Below, one piece after another: positions 9,388 through 36,426 of a stretch of DNA of 64,000 nucleotides. Source of the DNA: Frankiaceae bacterium (GTDB lineage Bacteria; Actinomycetota; Actinomycetes; BP-191). How positions within the stretch are numbered: position 1 is the stretch's first letter; every line of letters begins with the position of its first letter. The stretch is taken from positions 1 to 64,000 of the forward strand of contig DATMES010000001.1 of NCBI GenBank assembly GCA_035556555.1, given 5' to 3'. Both the position numbers and the translations under genes were made by a program. The notes below the pieces were generated by a model, which saw only the letters and a list, made by a program, of their open reading frames with translations, was not told where the DNA came from and did no database searches.

Positions 9388-9414
9388 GGGAATCCCTGAC
9401 ACATGCCGCACGTT
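9388..9414 (+). promoter_or_regulatory. Sigma-R (SigH) type promoter of rbpA
   Basis: GGGAAT (9388-9393) and GTT (9412-9414) are separated by exactly 18 bases. This is the GGGAAT-N18-GTT consensus of the thiol-oxidative-stress sigma factor sigma-R/SigH. rbpA is a known sigma-R target in Streptomyces. The promoter lies about 40 bases upstream of the rbpA start. Confidence 0.8.
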
Positions 9415-9451
9415 GGACAGGAACGATCCCCCTGAACCCCGGGAGGCCCCC

Positions 9452-9799
9452 ATGGGTGAACGCGTCCTGCGAGGCAGCCGCCTCGGCGCCGTGAGTTACG
9501 AGAACGACCGCAACACCGACCTGGCCCCGCGCCAGTCGGTGCACTACGACTGCCCCAAGGGCCACCACTTCACCGTGCCGTTCGCGGCCGAGGCCGAGGT
9601 GCCGGGTACCTGGGAGTGCAGCTTCTGCGGCACCGCCGCGCAGCACGCCGGCGCCGCGCCGCCGGAGCCGAAGAAGGTCCGCCCGACCCGCACGCACATG
9701 GACATGCTCCGCGAGCGCCGTACGACCGACGACCTCGAAGAGGTCCTCAAGGAGCAGCTCGCCGCGCTGCACAGCGCCCAGAAGCGGAAGTCCGCGTAG
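9452..9799 (+). CDS. rbpA: RNA polymerase-binding protein RbpA
   Basis: A 115-residue transcription activator of actinobacteria that binds RNA polymerase and the principal sigma factor and stabilises the open complex. The sequence starts MGERVLRGSRLGAVSYENDR, carries the Zn-ribbon-like core (YDCPKGHHF ... WECSFCG), and ends in the sigma-binding helix region (RTHMDMLRERRTTDDLEEVL). Length is typical (110-125). The ATG at 9452 has the ribosome site GGGAGG at 9441-9446. A sigma-R promoter lies upstream and a strong hairpin follows. Confidence 0.96.
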   Translation: MGERVLRGSRLGAVSYENDRNTDLAPRQSVHYDCPKGHHFTVPFAAEAEVPGTWECSFCGTAAQHAGAAPPEPKKVRPTRTHMDMLRERRTTDDLEEVLKEQLAALHSAQKRKSA

Positions 9800-9821
9800 A
9801 ACCCGCTAGGGTCCGAAGTCC

Positions 9822-9857
9822 AGGCCGCGCGCATCACCCCCCCGGTGCGCGCGGCCT
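9822..9857. terminator. Bidirectional terminator between rbpA and fxsA
   Basis: A perfect 11-bp stem, AGGCCGCGCGC (9822-9832) with GCGCGCGGCCT (9847-9857), loop of 14 bases, followed on the plus strand by GTCTGTGT. It separates two convergent genes. Confidence 0.7.
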
Positions 9858-9872
9858 GTCTGTGTCCGGGGT

Positions 9873-10373
9873 CTACTCGGGAGGCAGTGAGGGCGGCGGC
9901 GGGACGTTCGCCGGCCTGCGGTCCGCGGCGGGCACGCGGCGCGAACGCACCTTCCGTACGGTCTCCGTCCCCGACGCGGCGGCGCGACCGTAGCCGGCCC
10001 AGCGGAAGACGCCGACCCGCGACGTGGCCAGCCCCAGCAGGGTCTTGCGCAGCAGCGCCCGCGTCGGCGGCGCGACGCAGACCAGCCCGACGATGTCGGT
10101 GACGAACCCCGGCGTCAGCAGCAGCGCCCCACCGAACACGACGAGCACGCCGTCGGCGGTCTCCTTCGCCGGTACCCGGCCCGCCTCGATCGCCCCGCGG
10201 AACGCCCGCCAGACCTTCGCGCCCTCGCGCTTGACCAGCCACGTCCCGAGGATCGCCGACAGCAGCAGCAGGCCGATGGTGGGCAGGACGCCCAGCCAGG
10301 ACCCGACCTGGATGATGGCCCACAGCTCGACGATCGGGACGACGATGAACAGCACGAGGAGCAGCGCGGGCAT
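9873..10373 (-). CDS. fxsA: FxsA family membrane protein
   Basis: A 166-residue protein with the FxsA domain: N-terminal hydrophobic segment MPALLLVLFIVVPIVELWAI, a second segment (LPTIGLLLLSAILGTWLV), the conserved K-R-E-G-A-K-V-W-R-A-F helix, and a third hydrophobic part with LLTPGFVTDIVGL. E. coli FxsA modulates F-plasmid exclusion of phage T7; the native role in actinobacteria is unknown. The C-terminal 40 residues are Arg/Pro-rich and probably cytoplasmic. It follows ppm1 by 24 bases and may share its transcript. Confidence 0.88.
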   Translation of the reverse strand: MPALLLVLFIVVPIVELWAIIQVGSWLGVLPTIGLLLLSAILGTWLVKREGAKVWRAFRGAIEAGRVPAKETADGVLVVFGGALLLTPGFVTDIVGLVCVAPPTRALLRKTLLGLATSRVGVFRWAGYGRAAASGTETVRKVRSRRVPAADRRPANVPPPPSLPPE

Positions 10374-10397
10374 CAGCGGGCTCCTCTCACGAGATCC

Positions 10398-11162
10398 TCA
10401 ACGTCTGCCGACCGACGCGGGGTTCCGCCCGGCGGGCCGCGCGCGGCGGGACCGTACGGCCCACCACGTCACCCGCCACAGCGCCTCCGCGACGATCGCG
10501 CGGCTCATCTTGCTCTGCCCGCGTTCGCGCTCCACGAACGTGATCGGCACCTCGACGATCCGGAAGCCCGCCCGCCACGCCTGCCACGCGAGGTCGACCT
10601 GGAAGCAGTACCCCTGCGACGCGACCTCGCCGAGCGGCAGCGCGCCGAGCACCGCCATCCGGTACGCGCGGTAGCCGCCCGTCGCGTCCCGCAGCGGGAC
10701 GCCGAGGGCGATGCGGGTGTACGTGTTCCCGCCCTGGCTGAGCAGCCGCCGCGAGGTCGGCCAGTTGCGGACCTCTCCCCCGGGCACCCAGCGCGAGCCG
10801 AGGACGACGTCGGCGGTACGCAGCGCCGCCAGCAGCCGCGGCAGCTCCTCCGGCTGGTGCGAGCCGTCGGCGTCCATCTCGACGGCAACGTCGTAGCCGT
10901 GCTCCCTCGCCCACGCGAACGCCGCGATGTACGCCGCCCCCAGGCCCTCCTTGCCTGTCCGGTGCAGCACGTGGACCTGCGGGTCCTCGGCGGCGAGCGA
11001 GTCGGCGATGTCGCCGGTGCCGTCGGGCGAGTTGTCGTCGGCGACGAGCACGTCGACCTCGGGGACGGCGGCCCGGACGCGGCCGACGATCCAGGCGACG
11101 TTGTCCGCCTCGTTGTAGGTCGGGATGCACACCAGCACCCGCCCGAGATCCGTTGTCGTCAT
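10398..11162 (-). CDS. ppm1: Polyprenol monophosphomannose synthase
   Basis: A 254-residue family 2 glycosyltransferase. It transfers mannose from GDP-mannose to polyprenyl phosphate, supplying lipoglycan and protein O-mannosylation pathways. Motifs: VCIPTYNEADN at the N-terminus, VADDNSPDGTGDIAD (nucleotide-binding Asp pair), MDADGSHQPEEL (D-x-D-like metal site) and a C-terminal ITFVERERGQSKMS typical of dolichyl-phosphate mannose synthases. Its ATG overlaps the stop of lnt (11159-11162). In mycobacteria Ppm1 and Lnt are fused or adjacent; here they are separate, coupled genes. Confidence 0.92.
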   Translation of the reverse strand: MTTTDLGRVLVCIPTYNEADNVAWIVGRVRAAVPEVDVLVADDNSPDGTGDIADSLAAEDPQVHVLHRTGKEGLGAAYIAAFAWAREHGYDVAVEMDADGSHQPEELPRLLAALRTADVVLGSRWVPGGEVRNWPTSRRLLSQGGNTYTRIALGVPLRDATGGYRAYRMAVLGALPLGEVASQGYCFQVDLAWQAWRAGFRIVEVPITFVERERGQSKMSRAIVAEALWRVTWWAVRSRRARPAGRNPASVGRR

Positions 11163-12679
11163 CGGCGGCGCAGACTACCGGCGAACGCCCCCGCGATGCC
11201 CGCGACACCCACCAGCGCGAGCAGCCACTCGGGCCAGGCGCCGAGCCGGGTGGCGAGCGTACGGCCCCGCGCCAGCGGCACCTCGTGGACCAGCAGGTCG
11301 CGCGTGAAGATGGCGGAGCGGTCGACGTACGACCCGTCCGGCGCGATCACCGCGCTCACCCCGCTGGTCGCCGCGACGAGCACCGCGCGGCCGTGCTCGA
11401 CCGCGCGGATGCGCGACATCGCGAGCTGCTGGTGGGTCAGGTCGGAGCGGCCGAACGTCGCGTTGTTGGTCTGCACCACGAGCACCTCGGCGCCCTGCCG
11501 TACGCCGTCGCGCACCAGGCCGTCGTACGCCACCTCGAAGCAGATCACGTCGCCGAGCGAGACCCCCGCCACCTGCAGCGGGTCGGTCGAGCCCTCGCCG
11601 GCGGGCACGAAGTCGCGCGGGATCAGCGCCAGCCGCCCGAACCACGGCGTCACGACGTCGCGGAACGGCACGTACTCGCCGAACGGCACCAGGTGCCGCT
11701 TCACGTACGTCGCCCCGAAGCCGGTCGCCGGGTCCCACACGACGCCGGCGTTGTGGACCTCGGTGTCGTTCTTGTCGAGAACGGCGCCGACGACGACCGG
11801 CACGCCGATCTCCTTCACCGCGCCGTCGATGAGCGCGCGCGCGACGGCGTCGGTGCGGGGGTCGCGGTCGGTGCTGTTCTCAGGCCAGATGACGAACGCC
11901 GGCCTCGGCAGCGTCCCCGCCCGCACGGCCGCGGCGAGCTCGTACGTCGCCTCCGCGTGGTTGCGGATCACCGCGTCCTGCTGGCGGGTGTCGCGCGACG
12001 GCAGGCCGAGGCGGGGGACGTTGCCCTGGACCAGCGCGGCGACGGTCGTGCGGTCGGGCTTGGGCGCGCCAGGGAGGAGCGGTGACAGCGCCAGTGGTGC
12101 CAGGGCGAGCGCGAGGGCGGCGGCGGTGAGCGGCACGCGGCGCGCGGCCGCGTAGCGGACCGCGACGACGCCGAGACCGGCCGCCAGCGCCACGAGGAAC
12201 GTCACCAAAGGCGCGCCCCCCACCGACACCCACGGCAGCCACGGGCCCTCGTCCTGGCTGAACGCGAGCCGCCCCCACGTGAACCCGCCGAACGGCCAAC
12301 GCCCCCGTACGGCCTCCTGCAGCACCCACACGCCCGCCGCCCACAGCGGCCACGCGGGCAGGCGCGAGACGGCGGCGAGGGCCACGGCGGAGGCGGCGAG
12401 GATGGCCGCCTCCAGCAGCGCGAGGATGAGCCAGGCGTTGGTGCCGGCGCCGGGCTGGAGCCACTGCAGCAGCGGGACGAAGAACGCGACGCCGTAGACC
12501 AGGCCGAGGAGCGCGGCGCGTCTCAGGGGCTGCCGATGGACGGCGGCGAGCAGCAGCGCGGGGCCGACGACGGCGAGCGGGCGGACCGAGTAGTGCGGGA
12601 ACGCCAGCATCGTCAGCACCCCGCCGAGCAACGCGACCAGCAGCGCCGGGCGGCGCGCGAGCCGGTTGTCCTCGATCAC
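11159..12679 (-). CDS. lnt: Apolipoprotein N-acyltransferase
   Basis: A 506-residue membrane enzyme that adds the third acyl chain to lipoproteins. About six N-terminal transmembrane segments (residues 10-200) precede a nitrilase-type domain. The catalytic triad is visible: Glu267 in WPENS, Lys327 in YVKRHLVPFGEY and Cys380 in VICFEVAY. A final transmembrane helix lies near 485-500. It is the first gene of the lnt-ppm1-(fxsA) unit. Several lipoproteins in this window (19937, 21080, 54471) are likely substrates. Confidence 0.93.
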   Translation of the reverse strand: MIEDNRLARRPALLVALLGGVLTMLAFPHYSVRPLAVVGPALLLAAVHRQPLRRAALLGLVYGVAFFVPLLQWLQPGAGTNAWLILALLEAAILAASAVALAAVSRLPAWPLWAAGVWVLQEAVRGRWPFGGFTWGRLAFSQDEGPWLPWVSVGGAPLVTFLVALAAGLGVVAVRYAAARRVPLTAAALALALAPLALSPLLPGAPKPDRTTVAALVQGNVPRLGLPSRDTRQQDAVIRNHAEATYELAAAVRAGTLPRPAFVIWPENSTDRDPRTDAVARALIDGAVKEIGVPVVVGAVLDKNDTEVHNAGVVWDPATGFGATYVKRHLVPFGEYVPFRDVVTPWFGRLALIPRDFVPAGEGSTDPLQVAGVSLGDVICFEVAYDGLVRDGVRQGAEVLVVQTNNATFGRSDLTHQQLAMSRIRAVEHGRAVLVAATSGVSAVIAPDGSYVDRSAIFTRDLLVHEVPLARGRTLATRLGAWPEWLLALVGVAGIAGAFAGSLRRR

Positions 12680-13025
12680 GTGCCGACGCTACCTGCGGCC
12701 GTACGGCACCGCAGAACGCGCGGGCGGCGCTGGAACGGAAAGAGGGTCCAGCCGCCCTTCGGACCGGGCCGTTCCCGCGGGCGGCGGGCTACGGAGCACC
12801 GTTGTCTACTGGGCGGCCGGACCCCTCCGGCGCGAGACCACCCCCGCCGGCCGGTGGCTCCTGGGCGCCCCCTTGTGGGGAGCGCCCTCCGGTCGTTCGA
12901 CCAGGTGGTCGGCCGAACCCTGCCAAGCGCGTACGGCTGTGTCAACACACCCCTGACCTGCGGTTTTACGGCATCAGCGCAGGTCAGCCGCATGATCGGC
13001 GATCACGAAAAACCGCTCGTACGGA
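12680..13025. other. Intergenic region with one perfect dyad
   Basis: 346 bases without a supported gene between lnt (upstream side) and kal (downstream side), both on the minus strand. The clearest structure is CTGACCTGCG (12953-12962) and its exact complement CGCAGGTCAG (12978-12987), spaced by 15 bases. It could terminate the kam operon or be an operator. Short ORFs here have no convincing coding signal. The lnt promoter must lie in the left part, but I could not fix it. Confidence 0.5.
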
Positions 13026-13427
13026 CTAGGAATTGGGCCGTTCGGACGAGGCTTGGGGCACGACCACCGTGCCCGTCGCCGTGACGACGACGAGCGGCTC
13101 GGCGAGGACGCGCGCGGCGGACTGGCCGGCGTCCGGCGCGGCGCGGCAGACGACCCGCGCCTCGAACGCGATCTCGCGCGATCGCCTGCCCATCCGCGTC
13201 ACCGTCGCCGTCGCCTCGAGGACGTCGCCGCCGTGGACGGGCCCGGTGAAGCTCACCTCGCTGTAGCCCGCGAACAGCCCTTCGTCGCCGTCCGTACGGA
13301 TGCAGACCTCGGTGGCGACGTCGCCGAAGAGCGCGAGGACGTACGCGCCGTCGACGAGGTTGCCGCCGTAGTGGGCGTGCGAGTACGGCACGTAGCGCCG
13401 GTGCGTGACCGACAGGCCTTCGCTCAT
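13026..13427 (-). CDS. kal: 3-aminobutyryl-CoA ammonia-lyase
   Basis: A 133-residue hotdog-fold protein. In lysine fermentation it removes ammonia from L-3-aminobutyryl-CoA to give crotonyl-CoA. It begins MSEGLSVTHRRYVPYSHAHYGGNLVDGAYVL and contains ATEVCIRTDGDEGLFAGYSEVSF, close to the known Kal pattern; the length matches. Its ATG overlaps the kamE stop by 4 bases (13424-13427). It is the last gene of the minus-strand unit. Confidence 0.85.
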   Translation of the reverse strand: MSEGLSVTHRRYVPYSHAHYGGNLVDGAYVLALFGDVATEVCIRTDGDEGLFAGYSEVSFTGPVHGGDVLEATATVTRMGRRSREIAFEARVVCRAAPDAGQSAARVLAEPLVVVTATGTVVVPQASSERPNS

Positions 13428-14293
13428 GCGCTGATCCTGTCGGACGACGGCGGCAGGAGGGCGTGGACGAGGTACGACGCCACCTCGCGCGGCGTCGTCC
13501 CCTTGCCGAACACGCGGTCGACGCCGTACTCCCCCGCCTTGGTCTGGTCGAAGCGCGGGCCACCGACGACGAGCAGCGGGCGGGCGTCGGGGTACGCCGC
13601 CCGGAACGCCGCCGTGACCTCCTGCGTGTGGTGCACGTGGGCGTCCCGCTGCGTGACGACCTGGCTGGTCAGGACGGCGTCGGCGTTCTCGGCCTGCGCG
13701 CGCGCGACGAGGTCGTCGACGCCGACCTGCGAGCCGAGGTTCACGACGCGGATCTCGCGGTAGTACTCGAGCCCCTTCTCCCCCGCGAACCCCTTGACGT
13801 TGAGGATCGCGTCGAGCCCGACGGTGTGCGCGTCGGTGCCGACGGTCGCGCCGACGACGACGAGCCTGCGGCGCAGCCGCGAGCGGATCGCGAGGTTGAC
13901 CTCCTTGGCCGACAGGAGCGGGTACTCGCGCTCCACGACCTCGACCTGGGACAGGTCGACGAGGTGGCCGACGCGGCCGTACACGACGAAGAACGTGAAC
14001 GAGGGGCCCATCCCCTTGGCGTGCACGACCATCGCCGGCTCGATGCCCATCTTGTGCGCGAGCTGCAACGCCGCGCCCTCGGCCTGCGCGTCGTGCGGGA
14101 CGGGCAGCGTGAACGACAGCTGCACCATCCCGTCGCCGGTCGTGTCGCCGTAGGGGCGGACGACCCGGCCTGGTGGCGGCGCGGCGGAGGGCGTGACGTT
14201 GCCGAGGCGGTCGTGCGAGGCGGGGACGCGGGCCTCCTCGGCGGCTGCGGCGGCACCGCCGGGTACGGGCTCGCGGCGCTGACGGGCGGTCAT
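13424..14293 (-). CDS. kamE: Lysine 5,6-aminomutase beta subunit
   Basis: A 289-residue cobalamin-binding subunit of the adenosylcobalamin- and PLP-dependent D-lysine / L-beta-lysine 5,6-aminomutase. The B12 signature D-x-H-x-x-G is DAHTVG at residues 154-159, with downstream Rossmann elements (LTSQVVT; LLVVGGPRF). The N-terminal 45 residues form an Ala/Pro-rich extension. The ATG (14293) overlaps the kamD stop, and its own stop overlaps the kal start, so subunit synthesis is coupled. Confidence 0.93.
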   Translation of the reverse strand: MTARQRREPVPGGAAAAAEEARVPASHDRLGNVTPSAAPPPGRVVRPYGDTTGDGMVQLSFTLPVPHDAQAEGAALQLAHKMGIEPAMVVHAKGMGPSFTFFVVYGRVGHLVDLSQVEVVEREYPLLSAKEVNLAIRSRLRRRLVVVGATVGTDAHTVGLDAILNVKGFAGEKGLEYYREIRVVNLGSQVGVDDLVARAQAENADAVLTSQVVTQRDAHVHHTQEVTAAFRAAYPDARPLLVVGGPRFDQTKAGEYGVDRVFGKGTTPREVASYLVHALLPPSSDRISA

Positions 14294-15849
14294 CGCGCAC
14301 CCTCCAGGATCTCGGTGGCGGGGTTCCAGTAGCCGTCGCCGTGCGCGACGACGCCGTCGAGGCCGCGGCCGCCGTCGGGCGGGCGCTTCGTGATGCCGAA
14401 CGTCCCCTCGGCGATCGCGTCGAGCAGGCCGTCGTCGGCGATGCGCTCGAGCAGCTCGACGGACTCGGAGAGGACCTGGCGCGCGCGGGTCGCGATGAAG
14501 CCGTCCTTGGGCGGGTGGAAGTCCTCGGCGAGGTTGCCGGCGGCGGAACGCACGTAGGCGACGTTCTCCAGCGCGAGGTCGCGGTCGGAGAGGAACGGCG
14601 TGACGATCCCCTCGGTCATCATCCCGACGAGGATGATCCCCTGGCCGGTCATCGTGCCGACGAGGTTGAAGAAGCCGTCGAGCAGGTAGCCGGCGAACAC
14701 GTTGCCGGTCATGTGCTTGGTAGGCGGCATGTACTTCAGCGGCGCCTCGGGGAACACTTCGCGGACGAGCTGCGCGTGGGCCAGCTCGAGCCTGAGCTGG
14801 TCGGGGATGGCGGGGTTGATCTCGAACGCGTGCCCCAGCCCGAGCTGCCACGGCTCCAGGCCGGCTTCGAGGCCGAAGCGCTCGTTGAGCAGCTGGCTCA
14901 CGACGACGGTGTGCGCGGCGTCGACGGCGTCGGCGGTGGTGAGGTAGTTGTCCTCGCCGGTGTTGATGACGATGCCGGCCCGGGCGTGCACCTGCCTGCT
15001 GAACCGCTGGTCGACGAACGTCCGCCGCGGGTTGATGTCGCGGAAGATGATCCCGTACATGCAGTCGTTGAGCATCATGTCGAGGCGTTCGAGGCCGGCC
15101 AGGGCGGCGATCTCCGGCATGCAGAGGCCGCTCGCGTAGTTGGTCAGCCGGACGTAGCGGCCGAGCTCCCTGCCCACGTCGTCGAGGGCGGCGCGCATGA
15201 GGCGGAAGTTCTCCTGCGTGGCGTACGTCCCCGCGTAGCCCTCGCGCGTCGCGCCCTCGGGGACGTAGTCGAGCAGGCTCTGTCCGGTGGAACGGATGAC
15301 CGCGACGACGTCGGCGCCGGCGCGGGCCGCGGCCTGCGCCTGCGGGATGTCCTCGTAGATGTCGCCCGTCGCGACGATGAGGTAGATCCACGGCATCGGC
15401 GGGTCGCCGATCCGCTCGAGCAGCCGGTCGCGCTCCTTGCGGTTGGCGTCGATGCGCTTGATGCCGGCGCCGACGGCCTTGCGCGCGGCCGCGGTCGCGC
15501 GGGTGGCGTCGCGGCCCGCCGGCACGCGGAACGTCACCCCGCCGGTCGCCGCCTTCTCCGCCAGCGTCGCGAGGTCGGTGTCCTCGCGGAGCAGCGCGTC
15601 CCAGACGGGCAGCGCGACACCCTGCTCCAGGCCGGCGTCGTCGCGTACGGCCTCGACGAGGCGGTTGACCCACGGGATGCCCTCGGCGTCGGCGCCGGTG
15701 ACGCCGGCAAGCCTGAGAACGGCGCGTTCGACGCTGACGGTCGTGTGGGTCCGCGCCATCTCCTCGACGGGCGCGGCGGCCCGCGCGGCGAGGCGGCGCG
15801 CCTTGCGCACCACGGACGCGTCCAGCCGCAGCTTGCGTTCCACGGTCAT
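14290..15849 (-). CDS. kamD: Lysine 5,6-aminomutase alpha subunit
   Basis: A 519-residue catalytic subunit with a TIM-barrel that binds PLP and the adenosylcobalamin. It starts MTVERKLRLDASVVRKARRLA and has the conserved stretches IDANRKERDRLLERIGDPPMPW, MLNDCMYGIIFRDINPRRT, INTGEDNYLTTADAVDAAHTV and GNVFAGYLLDGFFNLVGTMTGQ, diagnostic for KamD. Length agrees with the clostridial enzyme (about 516). ATG at 15849 overlaps the stop of the amidohydrolase gene. Confidence 0.95.
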   Translation of the reverse strand: MTVERKLRLDASVVRKARRLAARAAAPVEEMARTHTTVSVERAVLRLAGVTGADAEGIPWVNRLVEAVRDDAGLEQGVALPVWDALLREDTDLATLAEKAATGGVTFRVPAGRDATRATAAARKAVGAGIKRIDANRKERDRLLERIGDPPMPWIYLIVATGDIYEDIPQAQAAARAGADVVAVIRSTGQSLLDYVPEGATREGYAGTYATQENFRLMRAALDDVGRELGRYVRLTNYASGLCMPEIAALAGLERLDMMLNDCMYGIIFRDINPRRTFVDQRFSRQVHARAGIVINTGEDNYLTTADAVDAAHTVVVSQLLNERFGLEAGLEPWQLGLGHAFEINPAIPDQLRLELAHAQLVREVFPEAPLKYMPPTKHMTGNVFAGYLLDGFFNLVGTMTGQGIILVGMMTEGIVTPFLSDRDLALENVAYVRSAAGNLAEDFHPPKDGFIATRARQVLSESVELLERIADDGLLDAIAEGTFGITKRPPDGGRGLDGVVAHGDGYWNPATEILEGAR

Positions 15850-18525: not shown

Positions 18526-19932
18526 ATGGCGGAGGGTCTCGCGCAGCCGTTCGCGTACCCGCAGGCGCGGGAGTTCCGCGAGCCCGACTGGACGCGCCTC
18601 CCCGGGTTCAAGGACGTCACGAGGGACGAGTGGGAGTCGGCCCAGTGGCAGCGCTCCCACTGCGTCAAGAACCTCGCCCAGCTGAAGAACGCGTTCGGCG
18701 GCCTGATCGGCGACGACCTCCTCGCCGACATCGAACGCGACCAGGCCGAGCGCGCGACGATGTCGATCCTCGTGCCGCCGCAGATGCTCAACACGATGGA
18801 CGAGACCGACCTGTACGCGGACCCCGTACGCCGCTACATGCTGCCGGCGTTCAGCGAGCGCGACCCCGAGTGGCCGTCGCACCCGCGGGCGATGCGCGAC
18901 TCGCTGCACGAGCACGAGATGTGGGCGGTCGAGGGGCTGACGCACCGCTACCCCACCAAGGTCCTCGCGGAGATGCTGCCGACCTGCCCGCAGTACTGCG
19001 GCCACTGCACCCGCATGGACCTCGTCGGCAACTCCGTGCCGCAGGTCGCGAAGCTGAGGTTCGAGGCCAAGCCGGCCGACCGGCATCGCGCGATGCTCGA
19101 CTACCTGCGCGCCAACCCCGGCGTACGCGACGTCGTCGTGTCGGGCGGCGACGTCGCCAACCTGCCGTTCCACCAGCTCGAGACGTTCGTCGCCGAGCTG
19201 ATCGAGATCCCCAACGTGCGCGACGTACGGCTGGCGTCGAAGGGCCTCATGGGCCTGCCCCAGCACTGGCTCCAGGACGACGTCGTCTCGGGCATGGAAC
19301 GCCTGGCGCGCAAGGCGTTCGAGCACGACGTCGACCTCGCGCTGCACACCCACGTCAACCACGCGAACTCGGTGACGCCCCTCGTCGCGAAGGCGTCCAA
19401 ACGACTGCTCGAGGCCGGCGTCCGCGACGTCCGCAACCAGGGCGTGCTGCTGCGCGGCGTCAACGCCACCCCCGAGGCGCTGCTCGACCTCTGCTTCACG
19501 TTGCTCGACCACGCCAAGGTGATGCCGTACTACTTCTACATGTGCGACCTCATCCCGGGGTCGGAGCACTGGCGCGTCTCGGTGGCGCAGGCGCAGGAGC
19601 TGCAGCACGCGGTCATGGGCTACCTGCCGGGCTTCGCGACACCGCGCATCGTCTGCGACGTGCCGTACGTCGGGAAGCGCTGGGTGCACCAGGTCGCGGA
19701 GTACGACCGCGAGCGCGGCATCTCGTACTGGACCAAGAACTACCGCACCGGCATCGAGCGCGACGACGCCGACGCGCTGACCCGCCGCTACGAGTACTAC
19801 GACCCGATCGCGTCGCTCCCCGAGGCCGGCCAGGAGTGGTGGCGCGCACAGACGTCCGCCGCGATGACCGGGCTCGCGCAGCGCGCGGCCGCCGAATCGA
19901 GGGACGCGAGCGCCGCGCTGGCCGCACACTGA
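18526..19932 (+). CDS. kamA: Lysine 2,3-aminomutase (radical SAM)
   Basis: A 468-residue radical SAM, PLP-dependent enzyme converting L-lysine to L-beta-lysine, first step of the pathway. The [4Fe-4S] motif C-x3-C-x2-C is Cys154, Cys158 and Cys161 (TCPQYCGHCTR). Further conserved parts: VVSGGDVANLP, the HTHVNHANSVTP segment, NQGVLLRGVN and PYYFYMCDLIPGSEHWRV. Start ATG 18526 has CGGGAGG upstream; an in-frame ATG further upstream lies in the promoter region. It is about 40 residues longer than the clostridial enzyme. Confidence 0.93.
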   Translation: MAEGLAQPFAYPQAREFREPDWTRLPGFKDVTRDEWESAQWQRSHCVKNLAQLKNAFGGLIGDDLLADIERDQAERATMSILVPPQMLNTMDETDLYADPVRRYMLPAFSERDPEWPSHPRAMRDSLHEHEMWAVEGLTHRYPTKVLAEMLPTCPQYCGHCTRMDLVGNSVPQVAKLRFEAKPADRHRAMLDYLRANPGVRDVVVSGGDVANLPFHQLETFVAELIEIPNVRDVRLASKGLMGLPQHWLQDDVVSGMERLARKAFEHDVDLALHTHVNHANSVTPLVAKASKRLLEAGVRDVRNQGVLLRGVNATPEALLDLCFTLLDHAKVMPYYFYMCDLIPGSEHWRVSVAQAQELQHAVMGYLPGFATPRIVCDVPYVGKRWVHQVAEYDRERGISYWTKNYRTGIERDDADALTRRYEYYDPIASLPEAGQEWWRAQTSAAMTGLAQRAAAESRDASAALAAH

Positions 19933-19936
19933 GGGC

Positions 19937-20776
19937 ATGACCCGCGCCGCCGCCGCCCTCCTCGCCGCGGTGGCGCTGCTGCCCGCGTGCACCGACGGGC
20001 CGACCGCGTCGGTCGCCTCCACCCGGATCGTGCTCCAGGTGTCGTCCAGGGGTGGCGGCAGCGTTCCTGGGTCGTACGCCAGCCTGCCCGCCTGGACGCT
20101 GTACGACGACGGCCGCGTGATCTGGGAAGCACGGAGAGCCCCATCGACGGGCGTAGGACCGCTCCTCGACGACCTCCGCTCCGCGACCGTGTCGGCGGAG
20201 GACGTACGGCGCATCGCCGACGGCGCCCGCGAGGCGGGGGTCGACGGCGTCGCGCGCGACTACGGCGAGCTGCCCGTGTGGGACGCCGGCACGACCGTCT
20301 TCGTGCTGCACACCGACAGGGGCCGGGTGGCGAACGCCGTCTACGCGCTGGAGATGGCGCCCGAGACGGGCACCCCGGAGAACGACGCCAGGCGCACGCT
20401 GCACGAGCTGTTCCGCCATCTCCTCGACCTCGACGGCTGGCTCGGCGAGGGCACGCTGCGCGACGAGGAGCCGTACGAGCCGGAGGCGTTCGCCCTCTAC
20501 GCCCGCCGCATGGAGGGCGAGTACGAGCGCCGCTACCGCACCCCGTGGCGCGGGCCCGCGTTCGCCGCCGGCGAGGACACCCCGGCAGGCCTCTGCACAG
20601 TCCTCACCGGGGAGACGCTCGAGAAGGTGTGGCCCGACATCACGAAGGCGAACGTCCTCACGGTCTGGGTCACCGACGACGGCGACTGGTCGTTCCGGCC
20701 GCGCCAACTGCTCCCCGGCGAGAGCACGTGCGCCGACGGCACCGCGGTGGCGGAGGTGACGGCGCCGGCGCCATAG
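19937..20776 (+). CDS. Lipoprotein, paralogue of the 21080 gene
   Basis: A 279-residue predicted lipoprotein; the lipobox is LLPAC (Cys about residue 19). The mature part holds conserved blocks: ARDYGELPVWDAGTTVFVLHT, LYARRMEGEYERRYRTPWRG and CTVLTGETLEKVWPD. The same blocks recur in the lipoprotein at 21080, so the two arose by duplication. Function unknown; the set of two paired cysteines near the C-terminus (CTVLTG, STCAD) is shared. It follows kamA by 4 bases and may be cotranscribed without being functionally linked. Confidence 0.75.
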   Translation: MTRAAAALLAAVALLPACTDGPTASVASTRIVLQVSSRGGGSVPGSYASLPAWTLYDDGRVIWEARRAPSTGVGPLLDDLRSATVSAEDVRRIADGAREAGVDGVARDYGELPVWDAGTTVFVLHTDRGRVANAVYALEMAPETGTPENDARRTLHELFRHLLDLDGWLGEGTLRDEEPYEPEAFALYARRMEGEYERRYRTPWRGPAFAAGEDTPAGLCTVLTGETLEKVWPDITKANVLTVWVTDDGDWSFRPRQLLPGESTCADGTAVAEVTAPAP

Positions 20777-20803: not shown

Positions 20804-20977
20804 TCAGCAGCTGGCCGAGCCCGTACAGCACGTGCACGTCATGAACATCCTGCTGACGTTGGCGCAGACGGCGGCGGGCTGGGTCTGGACGGTCAGCGCC
20901 GCGCCGACGACGTCCATCAGGTCGTCGGGCGTGAGCTCGACGAGCGTCTCGCGCTTGAGGCTGAGGTTGCGCTTCAT
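20804..20977 (-). CDS. Leader-type small peptide (RiPP precursor-like), Cys-rich
   Basis: A 57-residue peptide between two paralogous lipoprotein genes, on the opposite strand. The leader reads MKRNLSLKRETLVELTPDDL then MDVVGAA, the same pattern as the peptides at 25721-27077, 34823 and 62903. The core (from about residue 27) has five cysteines, including TCTCC, and ends GSASC. A ribosome site (AAGGAGA) lies 4 bases before the ATG. By family resemblance the leader is like class I lanthipeptide leaders; that any modification takes place is inference. No processing gene is adjacent. Confidence 0.75.
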   Translation of the reverse strand: MKRNLSLKRETLVELTPDDLMDVVGAALTVQTQPAAVCANVSRMFMTCTCCTGSASC

Positions 20978-21079
20978 GCGTCTCCTTGGTGCCGAGGGGT
21001 GGACGTCCACCGAATCACGCGGAACGCCGTACGTCACGGTGCCGGGAACGCCACGCCTCTCTGCCGCGTCCGAGGCGAC

Positions 21080-21931
21080 ATGAAGCGACTCGCCGCCGTT
21101 CTCGTCGCCCTGGCGCTCGCGGGCTGCGCCGAGCCGTCCTCGGTCGGCCAGGAGCCCACGCCGACGCCGACCCCCACGCCGGCGTACGCCGCCGACGACG
21201 CCGTCCTGCGCGTGGAGTACCGCGGCGGGCTGCTGCCCCGCGAGACCGTGCCCGACGGGCCGTACTGGGCGCTCTACGGCGACGGCCGCGTCGTCACGCG
21301 CGGCCCCGAGCCCGACATCCATCCCGGCCAGGCGATGCCGAACCTGCGGGTCGCGGCCGTGCCCGCCCCGACCGTCACGGAGCTCGTCGAGGCCGCGCGG
21401 GAGGCCGGCATCGACGGGGTGCGGCGCGACTACGGCGACCCGCCCGTCGCCGACGCGTCCACCACCGTCTTCGTGCTCCGCACCGAGGACGGCGTCGTCG
21501 AGACCGCCGTCTACGCGCTCGCGGAGCACGGCGACGAGGGCAACGAGGCGCGCAGGAAGCTGTACGACTTCCACCGCCGGCTCACGGCGGAGCGCGAGGA
21601 CGGCGGCTTCGGTGGCCGGAGCTCCGACGAGGTGTACGAGCCGGCCGCCGTGGCCGTCTTCGCGCGGCCGTACACCGAGCACGACGACGACGGCCTCGCG
21701 GTCGACCACAGGGAGCAGGAGCTGCGGTGGCGCGGCCCCGACCCCGCCACAGGCGAGGACACCAGGGCCGGCCGGTGCACAGTCGTCACCGGCGCCGCGC
21801 TGGCCACGGTGCTGCCCGACCTGCGCAGGGCGAACACCCTGACCCGCTGGCGCTACGACGGCAAGGACTGGGCGCTGGGCCTGCGCCCGCTGTTCCCGGA
21901 CGAGAGCACCTGCGCCGACGTGCTGGCCTGA
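21080..21931 (+). CDS. Lipoprotein, paralogue of the 19937 gene
   Basis: A 283-residue predicted lipoprotein with lipobox LALAGC (Cys about residue 16), followed by a Thr-Pro repeat linker (PTPTPTPTP). Blocks VRRDYGDPPVADASTTVFVLRT and CTVVTGAALATVLPDL align with the 19937 lipoprotein. The C-terminus ends with an STCAD motif as in the paralogue. Unknown function, anchored outside the membrane. Start ATG at 21080. Confidence 0.75.
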   Translation: MKRLAAVLVALALAGCAEPSSVGQEPTPTPTPTPAYAADDAVLRVEYRGGLLPRETVPDGPYWALYGDGRVVTRGPEPDIHPGQAMPNLRVAAVPAPTVTELVEAAREAGIDGVRRDYGDPPVADASTTVFVLRTEDGVVETAVYALAEHGDEGNEARRKLYDFHRRLTAEREDGGFGGRSSDEVYEPAAVAVFARPYTEHDDDGLAVDHREQELRWRGPDPATGEDTRAGRCTVVTGAALATVLPDLRRANTLTRWRYDGKDWALGLRPLFPDESTCADVLA

Positions 21932-21932
21932 G

Positions 21933-23498
21933 CTACCCCAGCGCGGAGACCGGCACGGCCACGGAGTTCCACGCCGCCTTGACGTTCGCGGTCGGGTAGC
22001 CGAGGTCGGTCGCCGCACGGATCGTCGCCTCGCGCGCGCCCACGTACGCCGTCTTCGACGTCATGTACGTCGTCAGCGCGCGGTACCAGATCTTCGCCGC
22101 GGCGAGGCGGCCGATGCCGGTGACGGCGGGCGCGCCCTTGCAGCCGGCCAGCCCGTCGCCGAGCGGCGAGCTGGTGCCCTCCGCGAGCAGGAAGAAGAAC
22201 CGGTTGGCGACACCCGACGAGTAGTGGACGTTGAGCCGGCCGAGGGTCTTCGACCAGCAGTCCGGCGAACGCCCGTCCAGCGACGGGTGGTACATGTACC
22301 GGAACCCGTCGCCGGTGTACGGCAGCAGGATCTCCTCGCCGATGCCGTAGTCGCCGGGGTCGCCGGAGCTGGCCGCGTAGAACTCGACCATCGAGCCGAA
22401 GATGTCGCTCGTCGCCTCGTTGAGGCCGCCGCTCTCGCCGCGGTACTGCAGCCGCGCCGTCCGGCTCGTGATGCCGTGCGTCATCTCGTGCCCGGCGATG
22501 TCGAGCGAGACGAGCGGCAGGTCGGTCGAGCCGTCACCGTCGCCGAACGTCATGCAGAAGCAGGTGTCGCTCCAGAACGCGTTGTCGTAGTTGGTGCCGT
22601 AGTGGACGCGGGAGTACGTGCCCTTGCCGTCGTTGGCGATGCCGAGGCGGCTGTGGGTCGTCGCGAAGTAGTCCCACGTCTTCGCGACGCCGTAGTGCGC
22701 GTCGACCGCGGCGGTCTCGCGCGCGGCGCCGGTGAGGCCGTGCGTGCCGGTGCCCCACGAGTTGTCCGGCCCGGTGAACAGCGTGCCGATGCCGCTCGTG
22801 CCGCCCTTGAGGTCGGTCGTGTAGCCGCCGCCGCGCGTCGGGTCGCGCAGCTCGTACGTCGCGCCGTTGAGGTTGGTCTGCACCGTCACGGTGCCGACGT
22901 AGAGCGAGGCGCCCTGGCCGTCGACCGTCTCGATGCCGTCCCACGAGTCGAGCACGGAGCCGTCGGCCGCGGACACGACGACGTGCAGCTCGCTCGGGTC
23001 GCCCGCGGCGGTCGTCCCCTCGACGACGGTCTCCCAGGCCAGCGCCGGCGAGGCGCCGAACGCGTGCACGACGAGCCGCGGCGACGAACGCCGCACCGAC
23101 CCGCGCAGCGACGCCGCTCCGATCGCGGCGGCGTCGGCCGCGGACACCCTGGCAGCGGTCGAGAGCCGCAACGCCTTCGCGAGGCCGCCGGACGTGCCGC
23201 GCAGCGCGCCGTTACGGCGGCCGTGCACGACGACGTCGCCGCCGAGCACCTCGAGGCCGCGGTAGAAGCGGTCGAAGCGCACGTGCTCGGTGCCGTCGGC
23301 GTCGAGGACGACGTCGCGGGCGCGGAACGCGTGGTCGGTGCCGGGGTTCGCGGCGCGCAGGTGGCCGAGCGCGCGCGCGACGGCGGCGGACCTGGCGTCG
23401 GCCGCGCGCGGGGCCGGCGCGGCACCCGCCGTCGAGCCTGTCGTGAGGGTCGCGGCCACGGCGGCCAGCGCCACGCAGATCGTCATGCGGCGGTTCAT
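21933..23498 (-). CDS. Secreted M4 (thermolysin-type) metallopeptidase
   Basis: A 521-residue secreted zinc protease. Signal peptide residues 1-26, an FTP/propeptide region (about 35-195), then the catalytic domain. Zinc ligands: HEMTH at 337-341 and Glu361 in GGLNEATSDIFG; the transition-state His lies in NVHYSSGVANR. All catalytic residues are present, so it should be active after propeptide removal. The length matches the bacillolysin/griselysin family without an extra C-terminal domain. It is transcribed alone. Confidence 0.93.
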   Translation of the reverse strand: MNRRMTICVALAAVAATLTTGSTAGAAPAPRAADARSAAVARALGHLRAANPGTDHAFRARDVVLDADGTEHVRFDRFYRGLEVLGGDVVVHGRRNGALRGTSGGLAKALRLSTAARVSAADAAAIGAASLRGSVRRSSPRLVVHAFGASPALAWETVVEGTTAAGDPSELHVVVSAADGSVLDSWDGIETVDGQGASLYVGTVTVQTNLNGATYELRDPTRGGGYTTDLKGGTSGIGTLFTGPDNSWGTGTHGLTGAARETAAVDAHYGVAKTWDYFATTHSRLGIANDGKGTYSRVHYGTNYDNAFWSDTCFCMTFGDGDGSTDLPLVSLDIAGHEMTHGITSRTARLQYRGESGGLNEATSDIFGSMVEFYAASSGDPGDYGIGEEILLPYTGDGFRYMYHPSLDGRSPDCWSKTLGRLNVHYSSGVANRFFFLLAEGTSSPLGDGLAGCKGAPAVTGIGRLAAAKIWYRALTTYMTSKTAYVGAREATIRAATDLGYPTANVKAAWNSVAVPVSALG

Positions 23499-25720: not shown

Positions 25721-25903
25721 TCAGTCCGTGCAGCCCTGGCGGGTGATGCAGTCGAAGCAGGTGTGCTGAGCGCAGCTCGGCACACGGCTGACGCACTCCG
25801 CGAGGGGCTGCGTCGGGGGCGCGGCCGCGCCGACGACGACGGTGAGCTCGTCGGTCGCCAGCTCGGCGAGGGTCTCGCGCCGGAGGTCGAGGCGCTTGGT
25901 CAT
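25721..25903 (-). CDS. Leader-type small peptide 1 of tandem array
   Basis: 60 residues; last of seven tandem minus-strand peptides. Leader MTKRLDLRRETLAELATDEL then TVVVGAA. Core cysteines at 37, 44, 49, 52 and 58. Unlike the other six it lacks the T/S-C-P motif, so it is the most divergent core. Ribosome site AAGGAG lies upstream. Precursor-like by leader conservation; modification unknown. Confidence 0.78.
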   Translation of the reverse strand: MTKRLDLRRETLAELATDELTVVVGAAAPPTQPLAECVSRVPSCAQHTCFDCITRQGCTD

Positions 25904-25916
25904 CGGGGCTCCTTGG

Positions 25917-26108
25917 TCAGCAGACGCCGGTCTCGCAACCGCTGTGCGTCATGACGCAGCCGAGCAGGTCGCTCATGTCGCAACGGAGGATCGGGCAGCT
26001 GGCGCCCGCCGCACAGGTGGGCCCGCTGAGACCGCCGACCGCGAGGCGCAGGTCGTCGGTCGTCAGCTCGGCAAGGCTCTCGCGGCGCAGGGTGAGGCGC
26101 TTCGTCAT
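25917..26108 (-). CDS. Leader-type small peptide 2 of tandem array
   Basis: 63 residues. Leader MTKRLTLRRESLAELTTDDL then RLAVGG (double-Gly end). Core has six cysteines (32, 38, 43, 51, 58, 63), including the family motif S-C-P-I-L-R-C and a C-terminal Cys. The start is an ATG at 26108, not the longer frame. It sits 13 bases ahead of peptide 1. Confidence 0.78.
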   Translation of the reverse strand: MTKRLTLRRESLAELTTDDLRLAVGGLSGPTCAAGASCPILRCDMSDLLGCVMTHSGCETGVC

Positions 26109-26128
26109 CGGGATGGGGTGCCTTTCGG

Positions 26129-26323
26129 TCAGCAGTTGTTGGTGGCGCAGCCGTCGGCGGTCGGGAGGCAGCCGAGGATGTCGCTGAGGTCGGAGTCGGC
26201 GCAGCGCGCGATCGGGCACGTCATGCCGACCCTGGTCATGTCGTACGCGCCGCCGACGACGGCGACGAGGTCGGCGGACGTGAGCTCGGAGAGCGTCTCT
26301 CGCTTGAGGCTGAGGGTGCGCAT
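26129..26323 (-). CDS. Leader-type small peptide 3 of tandem array
   Basis: 64 residues. Leader MRTLSLKRETLSELTSADL then VAVVGG. Core cysteines 36, 41, 52, 59 and 64, with T-C-P-I-A-R-C and the ending TNNC. An ATG one codon upstream (26326) overlaps the stop of peptide 4 by one base (TGATG), so translation is coupled. Start choice between the two ATGs is open. Confidence 0.78.
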   Translation of the reverse strand: MRTLSLKRETLSELTSADLVAVVGGAYDMTRVGMTCPIARCADSDLSDILGCLPTADGCATNNC

Positions 26324-26325
26324 CA

Positions 26326-26520
26326 TCAGCAGTTGTTCGTCTCGCACTCGGTGCGCGTCAGGAGACAGCCCAGGAGGGCGCTGAGCTCGACGTCGCAGCG
26401 TACGACCGGGCAGGTGAAGCCGTCGTTCGTCCGGGCGGCGGCGGCGCCGACGACCGCGAACAGGTCGGCCGGGGTGAGCTCGGCGAGGGTCTCGCGCTTG
26501 AGGTTGAGGGTGCGCTTCAT
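26326..26520 (-). CDS. Leader-type small peptide 4 of tandem array
   Basis: 64 residues. Leader MKRTLNLKRETLAELTPADL then FAVVGA. Core cysteines 37, 42, 52, 59 and 64, with T-C-P-V-V-R-C and the ending TNNC. It is the closest relative of peptide 3 and the best match to the family consensus. Confidence 0.8.
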   Translation of the reverse strand: MKRTLNLKRETLAELTPADLFAVVGAAAARTNDGFTCPVVRCDVELSALLGCLLTRTECETNNC

Positions 26521-26532
26521 GGGGGTCCTTTG

Positions 26533-26709
26533 CTAGCAGTCGTAGGTCAGGCAGTTGTCCGTGCCGACGCAGCCGAGCTGGTCGGTGAGGTCGCGGACGC
26601 AGACCGCGACCGGGCAGGTGAGGCCGCTCTGGCCACCGACGACCATGCGCAGGTCGTCGGTGGCCAGCTCGGCGAGGCGCTCGCGCTGGAGGGTGAGCCG
26701 CTTCGTCAC
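26533..26709 (-). CDS. Leader-type small peptide 5 of tandem array
   Basis: 58 residues, read directly from the sequence. The start is GTG at 26709 with GGAGA upstream, and the stop is TAG (26533-26535). Leader (M)TKRLTLQRERLAELATDDL then RMVVGG. The usual Glu-Thr-Leu is Glu-Arg-Leu here. Core cysteines 32, 37, 47, 53 and 58, with T-C-P-V-A-V-C and ending TYDC. Confidence 0.78.
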   Translation of the reverse strand: MTKRLTLQRERLAELATDDLRMVVGGQSGLTCPVAVCVRDLTDQLGCVGTDNCLTYDC

Positions 26710-26721
26710 GGGGTCTCCAGG

Positions 26722-26898
26722 TCAGCAGGTGTTGGCGGTGATGTCGCCGCAGCGCGGCAGCAGCGTCATGTCGTTCAGGCACTGGCCCACCGGGCACGTC
26801 ATGTCCTGCCCGGTCGGGCTGCCGCCGACCGCGAGCAGCAGCTCGTCGGTCGTCAGCTCGGTGAGGCTCTCGCGCCTGAGGTCGAGACGCTTCCGCAT
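26722..26898 (-). CDS. Leader-type small peptide 6 of tandem array
   Basis: 58 residues. Leader MRKRLDLRRESLTELTTDEL then LLAVGG. Core cysteines 35, 40, 50 and 58, with T-C-P-V-G-Q-C and ending ANTC. Its ATG overlaps the stop of peptide 7 by one base (TGATG), coupling the two. Confidence 0.8.
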   Translation of the reverse strand: MRKRLDLRRESLTELTTDELLLAVGGSPTGQDMTCPVGQCLNDMTLLPRCGDITANTC

Positions 26899-27077
26899 CA
26901 GCACGTGTTGAGCGTGAGGCACCCGCACGTCGGCAGGATCGTCGCCTCGCGGACGCACTCGACGGCCGGGCAGGTGAAGCCCCGCGCGGTCGCGGCTTCG
27001 GCGCCGACGACGGCGGTCAGGTCGGACGGGGTCAGGTCGGTGAGGGTCTCGCGGCGGAGCCGCAGGGTGCGCTTCAT
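26898..27077 (-). CDS. Leader-type small peptide 7 (first of tandem array)
   Basis: 59 residues; promoter-proximal member. Leader MKRTLRLRRETLTDLTPSDL then TAVVGA. Core cysteines 36, 41, 51, 53 and 59, with T-C-P-A-V-E-C and ending LNTC. Ribosome site GGAAGGA 8 bases before the ATG. It lies 53 bases downstream of the Lrp-type gene on the same strand, so all eight genes may form one transcript. Confidence 0.8.
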   Translation of the reverse strand: MKRTLRLRRETLTDLTPSDLTAVVGAEAATARGFTCPAVECVREATILPTCGCLTLNTC

Positions 27078-27130
27078 GGAGGGGATTCCTTCCGAGGGGG
27101 AAACCGGACCATACCGCCTCAGACCCGTCC

Positions 27131-27571
27131 TTAGAAGGAGGGCGGGCGCCCCTCGTACGGTGTCGAGAGGACGACCGTGGTCCGCGTCGAGACGTTCGCG
27201 GCGGCGCGGATCTCCTGAAGCACCAGCTCCAGCGCCGTCGGCGTGGGCACCCGGACCTTGAGGATGTACGACTCGTCGCCGGCCACGCTGTGGCACGCCT
27301 CGATCGCCGTGATGCCGGCGAGGCGTTCGGGAGCGTCGTCCGGGGCGCTCGGGTCGATCGGTTTCACCGACACGAACGCCGTCAGCGCCAGGTCCAGCGC
27401 GTCGGGGTCGATCTCGGCGCGGTAGCCGCGGATGACGCCGCGCTGTTCGAGGCGCCGTACGCGCGAGTGCACCGCGGACACCGACAGGCCGGTCTGCTTC
27501 GCGAGGTCGGTGAAGCTCATCCGGCCGTCGTGCGACAGCAGCCGCAGGATCTCCGCGTCGGTCTCCTCCAT
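27131..27571 (-). CDS. Lrp/AsnC family transcriptional regulator
   Basis: A 146-residue regulator. N-terminal winged helix-turn-helix (MEETDAEILRLLSHDGRMSF ... SVSAVHSRVRRLEQRGVI) and a C-terminal RAM ligand-binding domain (about 65-140, ITAIEACHSVAGDESYILKVR). Members sense amino acids and form octamers on DNA. Lying directly upstream of the seven small peptides on the same strand, it is a candidate regulator of them; it could equally serve distant targets such as lysine catabolism. Confidence 0.9.
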   Translation of the reverse strand: MEETDAEILRLLSHDGRMSFTDLAKQTGLSVSAVHSRVRRLEQRGVIRGYRAEIDPDALDLALTAFVSVKPIDPSAPDDAPERLAGITAIEACHSVAGDESYILKVRVPTPTALELVLQEIRAAANVSTRTTVVLSTPYEGRPPSF

Positions 27572-34822: not shown

Positions 34823-35032
34823 TTAGGTCGTCTGCTGCGGGCAGAAGCACACGCAGCTGCCGTCGCTGACGTCGCAGCCGCCAGGGAGGATCAGCGCGTC
34901 GGCGATCGGGTCCGTGCAGACGCAGCTGCCGTCGCTGACAGTCCTCAGCTGCGGCGCGCCACCGGCGACGCGGCGCATCTCGTCGGTGGACAGCTCCGTC
35001 AGGTGCTCGGCACGGAGTGTGAGCTTCCTCAT
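34823..35032 (-). CDS. Leader-type small peptide with duplicated core, beside lanC-like gene
   Basis: 69 residues. Leader MRKLTLRAEHLTELSTDEM then RRVAGG, a divergent form of the family leader (AEHL instead of RETL) with a clean double-Gly end at about residue 25. The core carries VSDGSCVC twice (about residues 32-39 and 55-62), joined by TDPIADALILPGGCD, and has six cysteines. Ser next to Cys in each repeat would suit thioether rings. Ribosome site AGGGGAG. It is divergent from the LanC-like gene, 128 bases away. Confidence 0.8.
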   Translation of the reverse strand: MRKLTLRAEHLTELSTDEMRRVAGGAPQLRTVSDGSCVCTDPIADALILPGGCDVSDGSCVCFCPQQTT

Positions 35033-35079
35033 TTGTCGCTCCCCTCTAGTGGGCGAAAGAATTCGCCACGACGGCGGCG

Positions 35080-35108
35080 AGAGTAGTGACGGCCGATGCC
35101 GGTGTAAA
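35080..35108 (-). promoter_or_regulatory. Candidate promoter of the LanC-adjacent peptide
   Basis: On the minus strand TTTACA (35103-35108) and TACTCT (35080-35085) are separated by exactly 17 bases. Transcription would start near 35073, about 40 bases before the ATG at 35032. Confidence 0.5.
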
Positions 35109-35160
35109 GCGGTACGAATGACGACTTTCCGGATTTTCCGGCGCGTGCCAGAGTTCCGCC

Positions 35161-36426
35161 ATGGGGGCCCTGCTGACCGGCACCGCGGGCGACCGCGCGG
35201 TCGACGCGGCGTGCGCGATCGCGGCCGCGCTGTCGGCCGCTCCGCCGGCAGCGGGCTCGGCCGACGCCGCTCCGACGCTGAGCGGCGTCCTCGGCGCCGC
35301 GCTCTTCTGCACGGCGCTCGGCGAGGCCACGGGCGACAGCGCGTACACCGGCACCGCCGCCACGCTCCTCGACGACGCGGTGGCGCAGGTCGCGGAGCTG
35401 GAGCACCCCACGATCGGCCTGTACGGCGCCCCGATCGGCCTGGCGTGGGCCGACGCGGTGCTCCGCCCGCGGGTCGTACCGGACGACCAGGACGAAGGCG
35501 AGACGGACGTCGACAGGTTCGTGGGCAACGCGCTCGCGCGGGAGCGTTGGCCGTGGCCGAACGACCTCCTGCACGGGCTCGCCGGCCTCGGCATGTACGC
35601 CCTCGCCCGCCTCCCGCGCGAAGCGGCGCGCCGCGACCTGGCGCGCGTCGTGGCGCACCTCGCGGCGCTCGCGGAGGAGGACGAGGCCGGCGTCGCGTGG
35701 CGGTTCGTGCCGGCGCCCGGCAGCTCGTTCCGGTTCAACGAGTTCCGGCCGGAGGGCAACGTCAACCTCGGCTTCGCCCACGGCATGCCGGCGATCGTGA
35801 CGTTCCTCGCGGCGGCCCATCGGACGGGCGTCCCCGGCGCGGGCGAGCTGCTCGGACCCGCGGTGCGCTGGGTCGTGGCGCAGCGCCTGCCGCCGGGCGA
35901 ACGGTCGGCGTTCCCCGCGTACGTCGTCCGCGGCAGGCCCGCGACGGGCACGCGGCTGGCGTGGTGCTACGGCGACCCCGGCGTCGCGGTCGCGCTGCTC
36001 GCCGCCGGGGACGCGCTGGGCGACGACGACCTCGTCGCCCTCGCCGGCGAGATCGCCCGAGGATGCGCGGCGCAGGCCGACGACGGCGTCGACGGCGCGA
36101 CGCTCTGCCACGGGTCGGCCGGGCTCGGCCACGTGTTCCACCGCCTCGGGCGGGCCCTCGGCGACGAGCACGTGCTCGGCCTCGCGCGGCACTGGTTCGG
36201 CGTCGCCCTCGACCGCCACCTCCCCGGCCTGCTCGTCGTGGACCGTACGCGGGCCAAGGAGCTGGTCGCGGCCGGGAGCACGCTCGTCGTCGAGCCCGGC
36301 TACGGCTTCCTCTCCGGCGCCGCCGGCGCGGGCCTGGCACTGCTCGCCGCGACGAGCGACGAGGAGCCGTGGTGGGACGGCGCGCTGCTCGTCCAGCCGC
36401 CGGGGACGTGGCCGGTACGCCGGTAG
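35161..36426 (+). CDS. LanC-like lanthionine cyclase, stand-alone
   Basis: A 421-residue protein of the lanthionine synthetase C fold. The zinc and catalytic residues are in place: His207 in GFAHGMP, Cys269 in WCYGDPG, Cys316 and His317 in TLCHGSAG. Length fits bacterial LanC (about 400-450). LanC closes thioether rings on dehydrated Ser/Thr after LanB acts. No LanB, LanM, protease or transporter is nearby. The adjacent small peptide is the obvious candidate substrate. A LanC-like protein with another role (as in eukaryotic LANCL) cannot be excluded. glpD follows after 14 bases. Confidence 0.88.
   Translation: MGALLTGTAGDRAVDAACAIAAALSAAPPAAGSADAAPTLSGVLGAALFCTALGEATGDSAYTGTAATLLDDAVAQVAELEHPTIGLYGAPIGLAWADAVLRPRVVPDDQDEGETDVDRFVGNALARERWPWPNDLLHGLAGLGMYALARLPREAARRDLARVVAHLAALAEEDEAGVAWRFVPAPGSSFRFNEFRPEGNVNLGFAHGMPAIVTFLAAAHRTGVPGAGELLGPAVRWVVAQRLPPGERSAFPAYVVRGRPATGTRLAWCYGDPGVAVALLAAGDALGDDDLVALAGEIARGCAAQADDGVDGATLCHGSAGLGHVFHRLGRALGDEHVLGLARHWFGVALDRHLPGLLVVDRTRAKELVAAGSTLVVEPGYGFLSGAAGAGLALLAATSDEEPWWDGALLVQPPGTWPVRR

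Follow-up and report, generated by a model that had tools for sequence, protein, structure and literature searches.

How are seven small Cys-rich peptides matured when they are encoded in tandem behind one common leader and no modification gene adjoins them? This question was raised by an array of seven consecutive ORFs of 58-65 amino acids, read on the minus strand from 27077 to 25721 of the window, which is the whole stretch of 64,000 nucleotides analyzed here from a Frankiaceae bacterium. Coordinates without another label refer to this window. Precursor 1 (26898-27077) is composed of the leader MKRTLRLRRETLTDLTPSDLTAVVGA and the core EAATARGFTCPAVECVREATILPTCGCLTLNTC, and its stop codon overlaps the start codon of precursor 2 (26722-26898) as TGATG. 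Precursor 3 (26533-26709) begins with GTG and is followed by precursor 4 (26326-26520) and precursor 5 (26129-26326), whose start is at 26326 or 26323; the TGATG overlap at 26326 is the second of the two such junctions. Precursor 6 (25917-26108) was identified as an array member by leader alignment, and precursor 7 (25721-25903) possesses a core without the T/S-C-P-x3-C motif. In the alignment, M, L5, L7, R9, E10, L12, L15, L20, V24 and G25 were invariant in all seven leaders, which end in VVGG, VVGA or AVGG and are followed by divergent cores. The original prediction had described seven consecutive ORFs with a common leader and variable Cys-rich cores, and both coordinates and alignment agree with it. 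The stop/start overlaps that it reported are real, and the T/S-C-P-x3-C motif with a cysteine at the very end was found in six of the seven precursors, as it had stated. Its remark that Ser/Thr are few relative to Cys proved wrong, as the seven cores hold 42 Ser/Thr residues against 35 Cys.

To follow the leader beyond the array, the own genome (3.98 Mb in 71 contigs, 99.9% complete) was searched. The leader pattern combined with a near start and a short ORF gave 47 matches in 460 kb, whereas neither the reversed sequence nor any of ten triplet shuffles yielded one, which excludes a chance origin of the pattern. Precursor 4 as a single query exposed a genome-wide family with 54 matches. A profile built from 35 leaders found 60 matches at a threshold of E <= 0.01, and their extraction resulted in 60 ORFs at 29 sites, ranging from singletons up to runs of seven. 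One precursor (L024:10062-10256) is situated just downstream of the 3' end of an apparent tRNA gene, a possible insertion site. Conservation of the leader outside its own genome, on which the original prediction had been staked, was observed in two sister genomes of the same genus and order, with 27 and 54 profile matches. Among 297 genomes of the class, with no more than 28 candidates scored per genome, leader matches were found in three, all of this genus. All statements on co-occurrence across species refer to these three congeneric genomes, whose assemblies comprise between 71 and about 150 contigs.

Leaders and cores of the family showed different conservation, random precursor pairs being 57% identical in the leader and 35% in the core. 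All cores in a pooled set of 134, about two duplicate rows included, contain Cys plus Ser/Thr, and Thr makes up 14.1%, Cys 12.6% and Lys 1.2% of the core residues. Only 4 Cys were counted in 3448 leader residues. Of 127 leaders, 116 have Gly at position -1 and 126 have Gly or Ala at position 0; GG/GA is the type of site accepted by C39 domains. The four near-invariant leucines of the leader vary synonymously between CTC, CTG and TTG, a codon pattern which suggests selection at the peptide level. Mean entropy per codon position did not set the third positions apart (0.91, 0.95 and 0.93), so that among the codon measures only the synonymous Leu codons speak for selection.

A check of the rest of the genome for LanB, as advised with the original prediction, revealed one full-length enzyme together with a LanC and a C39 exporter. 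They are situated in locus L010 on contig C2, in the order LanC (7491-8714), LanB (8711-11719), a 143-aa protein (11716-12147) and an ABC transporter with a peptidase C39 domain (12147-14345). The LanB of 1002 aa is covered by PF04738 (524.7 bits, 1-648 of 649 positions) and PF14028 (191.5 bits, 1-255 of 255). By phmmer it aligns with MibB and NisB, and the LanC with NisC, over the catalytic motifs. All five LanCs compared retain the zinc ligands C-CH (CHG motif) and the conserved histidine (C269, C316, H317 and H207 in the numbering of the window LanC described below). The exporter is most like the NHLP type, with 620.6 bits to TIGR03796, below its cut-off of 853.3. Between LanB and exporter, a small membrane protein carrying the LFRPEAVEHHARG motif is encoded in all three species (L010:11716-12147, L105:14495-14965, L104:1370-1855 and L106:4602-5186). 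The 143-aa protein showed no family match, and a fold search with it gave no match at E <= 0.001. Its model contains, at modest confidence, a transmembrane helix and a small beta domain, and it is possibly a shortened HlyD-like adaptor.

LanB and the C39 domain each occur just once in the own genome. The locus is flanked by precursors, two at one end and three at the opposite end, so 5 of the 60 precursors are at the LanB locus while 55, the array among them, are remote. Gene order and flanking same-leader precursors are kept in both sister species, G002 (L105) and G001 (L104 and L106). At least 11 precursors are near the LanB locus of G002, and in G001 the locus is spread over two contigs, apparently as two copies, with 3 and 5 precursors beside them. 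The second LanB copy of G001 is interrupted by a contig end, and G002 contains a second C39 gene. Because of this extra LanB and this extra C39 gene, a single enzyme set can be claimed in the strict sense for the own genome alone.

On the gene content, the uniqueness of the enzymes in the own genome, the leader conservation and the core composition observed, the array is very probably part of a set of about 60 class I lanthipeptide precursors which are processed in trans by one LanB/LanC pair and one exporter. Following established class I biochemistry, the remote single LanB would bind each precursor through its leader and dehydrate Ser/Thr of the core by glutamyl-tRNA-dependent glutamylation and subsequent elimination. 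The LanC encoded beside it would then add Cys thiols, forming (methyl)lanthionine rings, and the C39 domain of the ABC exporter would cleave after GG/GA, with export of the products. Enzyme action on the array, the chemistry of ring formation and leader cleavage are all inferred, as is the biological role of the products. The remote precursors probably use the contig C2 enzymes, since they have the leader in common with the LanB-adjoining precursors and no alternative modifying-enzyme family recurs among 223 proteins flanking precursors. One modification system for several related products, as proposed originally, is thus probable, although its scale had been underestimated at seven precursors instead of about 60 at 29 sites. 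The statement that no modification enzyme, protease or transporter is near the array is right for the adjacent genes and wrong for the wider surroundings, with a LanC 8 kb off in the window and LanB and C39 exporter on another contig.

What counts against this assignment is that the leaders score below the NCBIfam cut-off for curated class I leaders. The model NF038153 ('class I lanthipeptide leader') matched six of the seven array peptides at 11.9-17.3 bits, all below its cut-off of 22; precursor 3 scored 17.3 bits and precursor 2 was not matched. We take NF038153 to be a model of one leader subtype which does not define class I lanthipeptides. Scanned against Pfam, the precursors yielded matches at chance level only. 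The earlier call of a class I-type leader with a GG/GA end is supported both by these sub-cut-off matches and by LanB and LanC with leader-matched precursors adjoining.

The second LanC-like cyclase, encoded in the window itself (421 aa, 35161-36426, plus strand), is the nearest competitor for the array. It shows 46% identity with the main LanC and has intact zinc ligands (C269, C316, H317) as well as the conserved H207, and a lone precursor (34823-35032, minus strand) with two copies of VSDGSCVC in its core is placed divergent from it. With this cyclase only 8 kb from the array, it may be specialized on the array while LanB is shared, so that two cyclases would serve different substrates. Such a division is unlikely. 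An orthologue of the window LanC was not found in either of the two sister species, though the array keeps its place there, and the adjoining precursor is the more obvious substrate. Exonuclease and glycerol-3-phosphate oxidase genes, which flank the 34823-36426 module here, are directly adjacent in G001, with neither the LanC nor the precursor between them, hence the module is a lineage-specific cyclase-plus-precursor unit by gain here or loss there. Under processing by the shared LanB/LanC pair, the window LanC may still serve as a second cyclase on some precursors.

Two further lone precursors were found in the window which, like that at 34823-35032, have the leader of the array, one at 62903-63064 (plus strand) and one at 20804-20977 (minus strand), whose core end CTCCTGSASC resembles array cores of the sister species. 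The latter is flanked by two paralogous proteins without family match (19937-20776 and 20999-21931), a relative of which also adjoins the array in G002 (L108). Near the array, a thermolysin-type M4 metallopeptidase is encoded at 21933-23498, and an M4 gene is found beside the G002 array as well. This neighbourhood may be fortuitous, or the peptidase may act in a later step of processing.

For export, a double-Gly leader and a C39 exporter would be enough on their own, and the peptides might accordingly stay unmodified or become disulfide-bonded, the leader acting as an export signal for the C39 transporter only. This is very improbable in view of a full-length LanB and LanC which in three species share one conserved locus with the exporter and same-leader precursors, and of cores rich in Thr as well as Cys, each having both. 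Cyclisation by disulfides or an unusual chemistry, as first supposed, gives way to the LanB/LanC on another contig with its leader-matched precursors; disulfide or unknown chemistry is needless for explaining the array.

Even less credence is given to a radical SAM-type thioether or another RiPP chemistry on these leaders. Precursor 3, alone among the seven array peptides, matched TIGR04149 (rSAM-modified RiPP), at 15.2 bits and below the cut-off of 25, and it scores higher with the lanthipeptide leader model. A radical SAM gene is located at 18526-19932, but it belongs to the lysine 2,3-aminomutase family and was ruled out as a modifier; it is the only recognised radical SAM gene nearby, and no radical SAM family recurs in the 223 flanking proteins.

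PF05147 detected four LanC domains in the own genome, representing two stand-alone class I-type proteins, one class III LanKC and one protein beside the LanKC. With all four so accounted for, a ProcM-type LanM with CCG was not encountered. The LanKC locus (C1 75.8-79.6 kb) was also considered as the modifier and ruled out, having its own separate system. Its surroundings (L032:6907-19165, C1:70.9-83.2 kb) encode the LanKC of 882 aa, which scores 805 bits with NF038151, along with another LanC-like protein, an M16 peptidase pair, two ABC transporter proteins and a regulator of the PucR type. These genes apparently amount to a complete class III lanthipeptide system plus one additional cyclase. 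Pairs of M16B peptidases are established as proteases of class III lanthipeptides (PMC8960859), and the pair beside the LanKC thus marks this locus as a separate system.

Least probable of all is a repetitive family of decayed or untranslated relics without products, for which the high copy number and two partial members at contig ends could be cited, since no stop interrupts the frame of any leader match, Shine-Dalgarno-like sites precede 52 of 67 first and 42 of 64 internal genes against 19% of random places, and the leader is conserved as amino acids with synonymous variation and kept in three species.

The 5' region of the array (27078-27110, minus strand) contains CCCCTC and a Shine-Dalgarno-like GGAAGG. 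CCCCT[AC] was found within 60 bp upstream of 19 of 36 first genes and of 5 of 137 control genes (p = 2e-11, a generous value since the motif was first spotted by eye in the same sequences). It may represent common control or common descent of copied 5' regions, two origins which are not separable, and a k-mer search of the 165-bp upstream regions gave nothing above background. Directly upstream of the array, an Lrp/AsnC-type regulator is encoded (27131-27571, minus strand), with 88-90% identity in both sister species, and it may have a regulatory role on the array.

This AsnC-type regulator adjoins the arrays of both sister species. In G001 the array is situated beyond a GGDEF-EAL gene, and G002 shows two precursors, the M4 peptidase and a run of at least 11 precursors. 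Copy number and cores of the array differ among the three species. Cores of the T/S-C-P type nevertheless account for 6 of 8, 9 of 9 and 11 of 12 precursors at the array locus in the three species, against 6 of 106 elsewhere. Mean best core identity between orthologous arrays was 0.51 and 0.53, barely above the 0.49 of random precursors, so the orthology is shown not by global core identity but by the T/S-C-P motif and synteny. The retention of this motif while copies and cores changed indicates that the site keeps its core family as the sequence turns over. In a tree of LanBs, the enzymes of the genus grouped with those of Acidobacteriota and separately from 19 further LanBs from the same class as the genus, a biased sample taken from among the best scorers of the Pfam search. 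The branching hints at LanB transfer between lineages, offered as a suggestion only.

Natural processing of tens of substrates is documented mainly for class II LanM of marine cyanobacteria, whose promiscuity has been associated with a CCG zinc motif. With some confidence, the present system is regarded as a naturally occurring class I equivalent of the prochlorosins. In it, a LanB/LanC pair with an ordinary CHG motif, of a type known from Acidobacteriota and not from other members of its own class, would process about 60 unrelated cores scattered over the genome of a rare lineage. Individual sites, the array among them, would hold on to their core families amid changes in the remaining core sequence, and extra cyclase-plus-precursor modules would come and go. 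A class I system on the scale of about 60 precursors was not found in a collection of open-access papers; the novelty is accordingly provisional. If true, a glutamyl-tRNA-dependent LanB and a CHG-type LanC are capable of a prochlorosin-scale substrate range. This would give a second, independent case for studying enzyme tolerance, and likewise the reason for a bacterium to maintain a diversified set of peptides. Class I peptide engineering would moreover gain a natural library of cores compatible with one leader, up to about 60 in each species. A large precursor-based survey limited its search to seven genes from LanC (PMC7268733). Mining restricted to a few genes around LanC would miss most of the precursors found here.

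Known class I systems usually possess one or few precursors adjoining the enzymes. The present system shares the full-length LanB, the LanC with zinc ligands and histidine, and the leader followed by a Ser/Thr/Cys core with class I. It resembles the L1a type (NF038153) in leader pattern and in the possession of LanB plus LanC, and differs from it by leader scores below 22 bits and by having only 5 of 60 precursors in the LanB locus. Similarity to the nisin and microbisporicin systems is seen in the alignment of LanB and LanC with the solved MibB, NisB and NisC, whose clusters, unlike the present one, contain the precursor together with the enzymes. Leader removal here is expected by the C39 exporter instead of the LanP of the nisin/microbisporicin type.

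Among named relatives, LanBs of Acidobacteriota (Holophagales UBA5704, Thermoanaerobaculia and gp11 MAGs) are closest, with 39-49% identity over the matched parts. Similar leaders are found in the Holophagales MAG (G297), which has a related LanB and gave 9-10 matches at E < 1e-3. The Acidobacteriota leaders have longer N-termini and match the leader here more weakly, and the assemblies are MAGs. The matches in G297 are distributed over contigs C196, C36, C101, C198, C2, C162 and C172, with Cys-containing cores where these were read, which suggests scattered class I precursors in Acidobacteriota too.

In organization, the 60 precursors at 29 sites with one LanB and variable cores are closest to the prochlorosins and synechococsins, where ProcM has 29 precursors and SyncM 79 (PMC10783134, PMC10027976). 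Both kinds of system combine scattered and tandem precursors, one processing system, a double-Gly leader and divergent cores (PMC10783134, PMC10027976). The prochlorosins depend on a class II LanM with CCG zinc motif and Nif11-type leaders in cyanobacterial hosts, whereas the present system has separate LanB and LanC, a CHG motif, an L-x-L-x-x-E-x-L-x-x-L leader and a non-cyanobacterial host. Prochlorosin-like in organization and class I in its enzymes, it is provisionally placed as a variant of known lanthipeptide biology.
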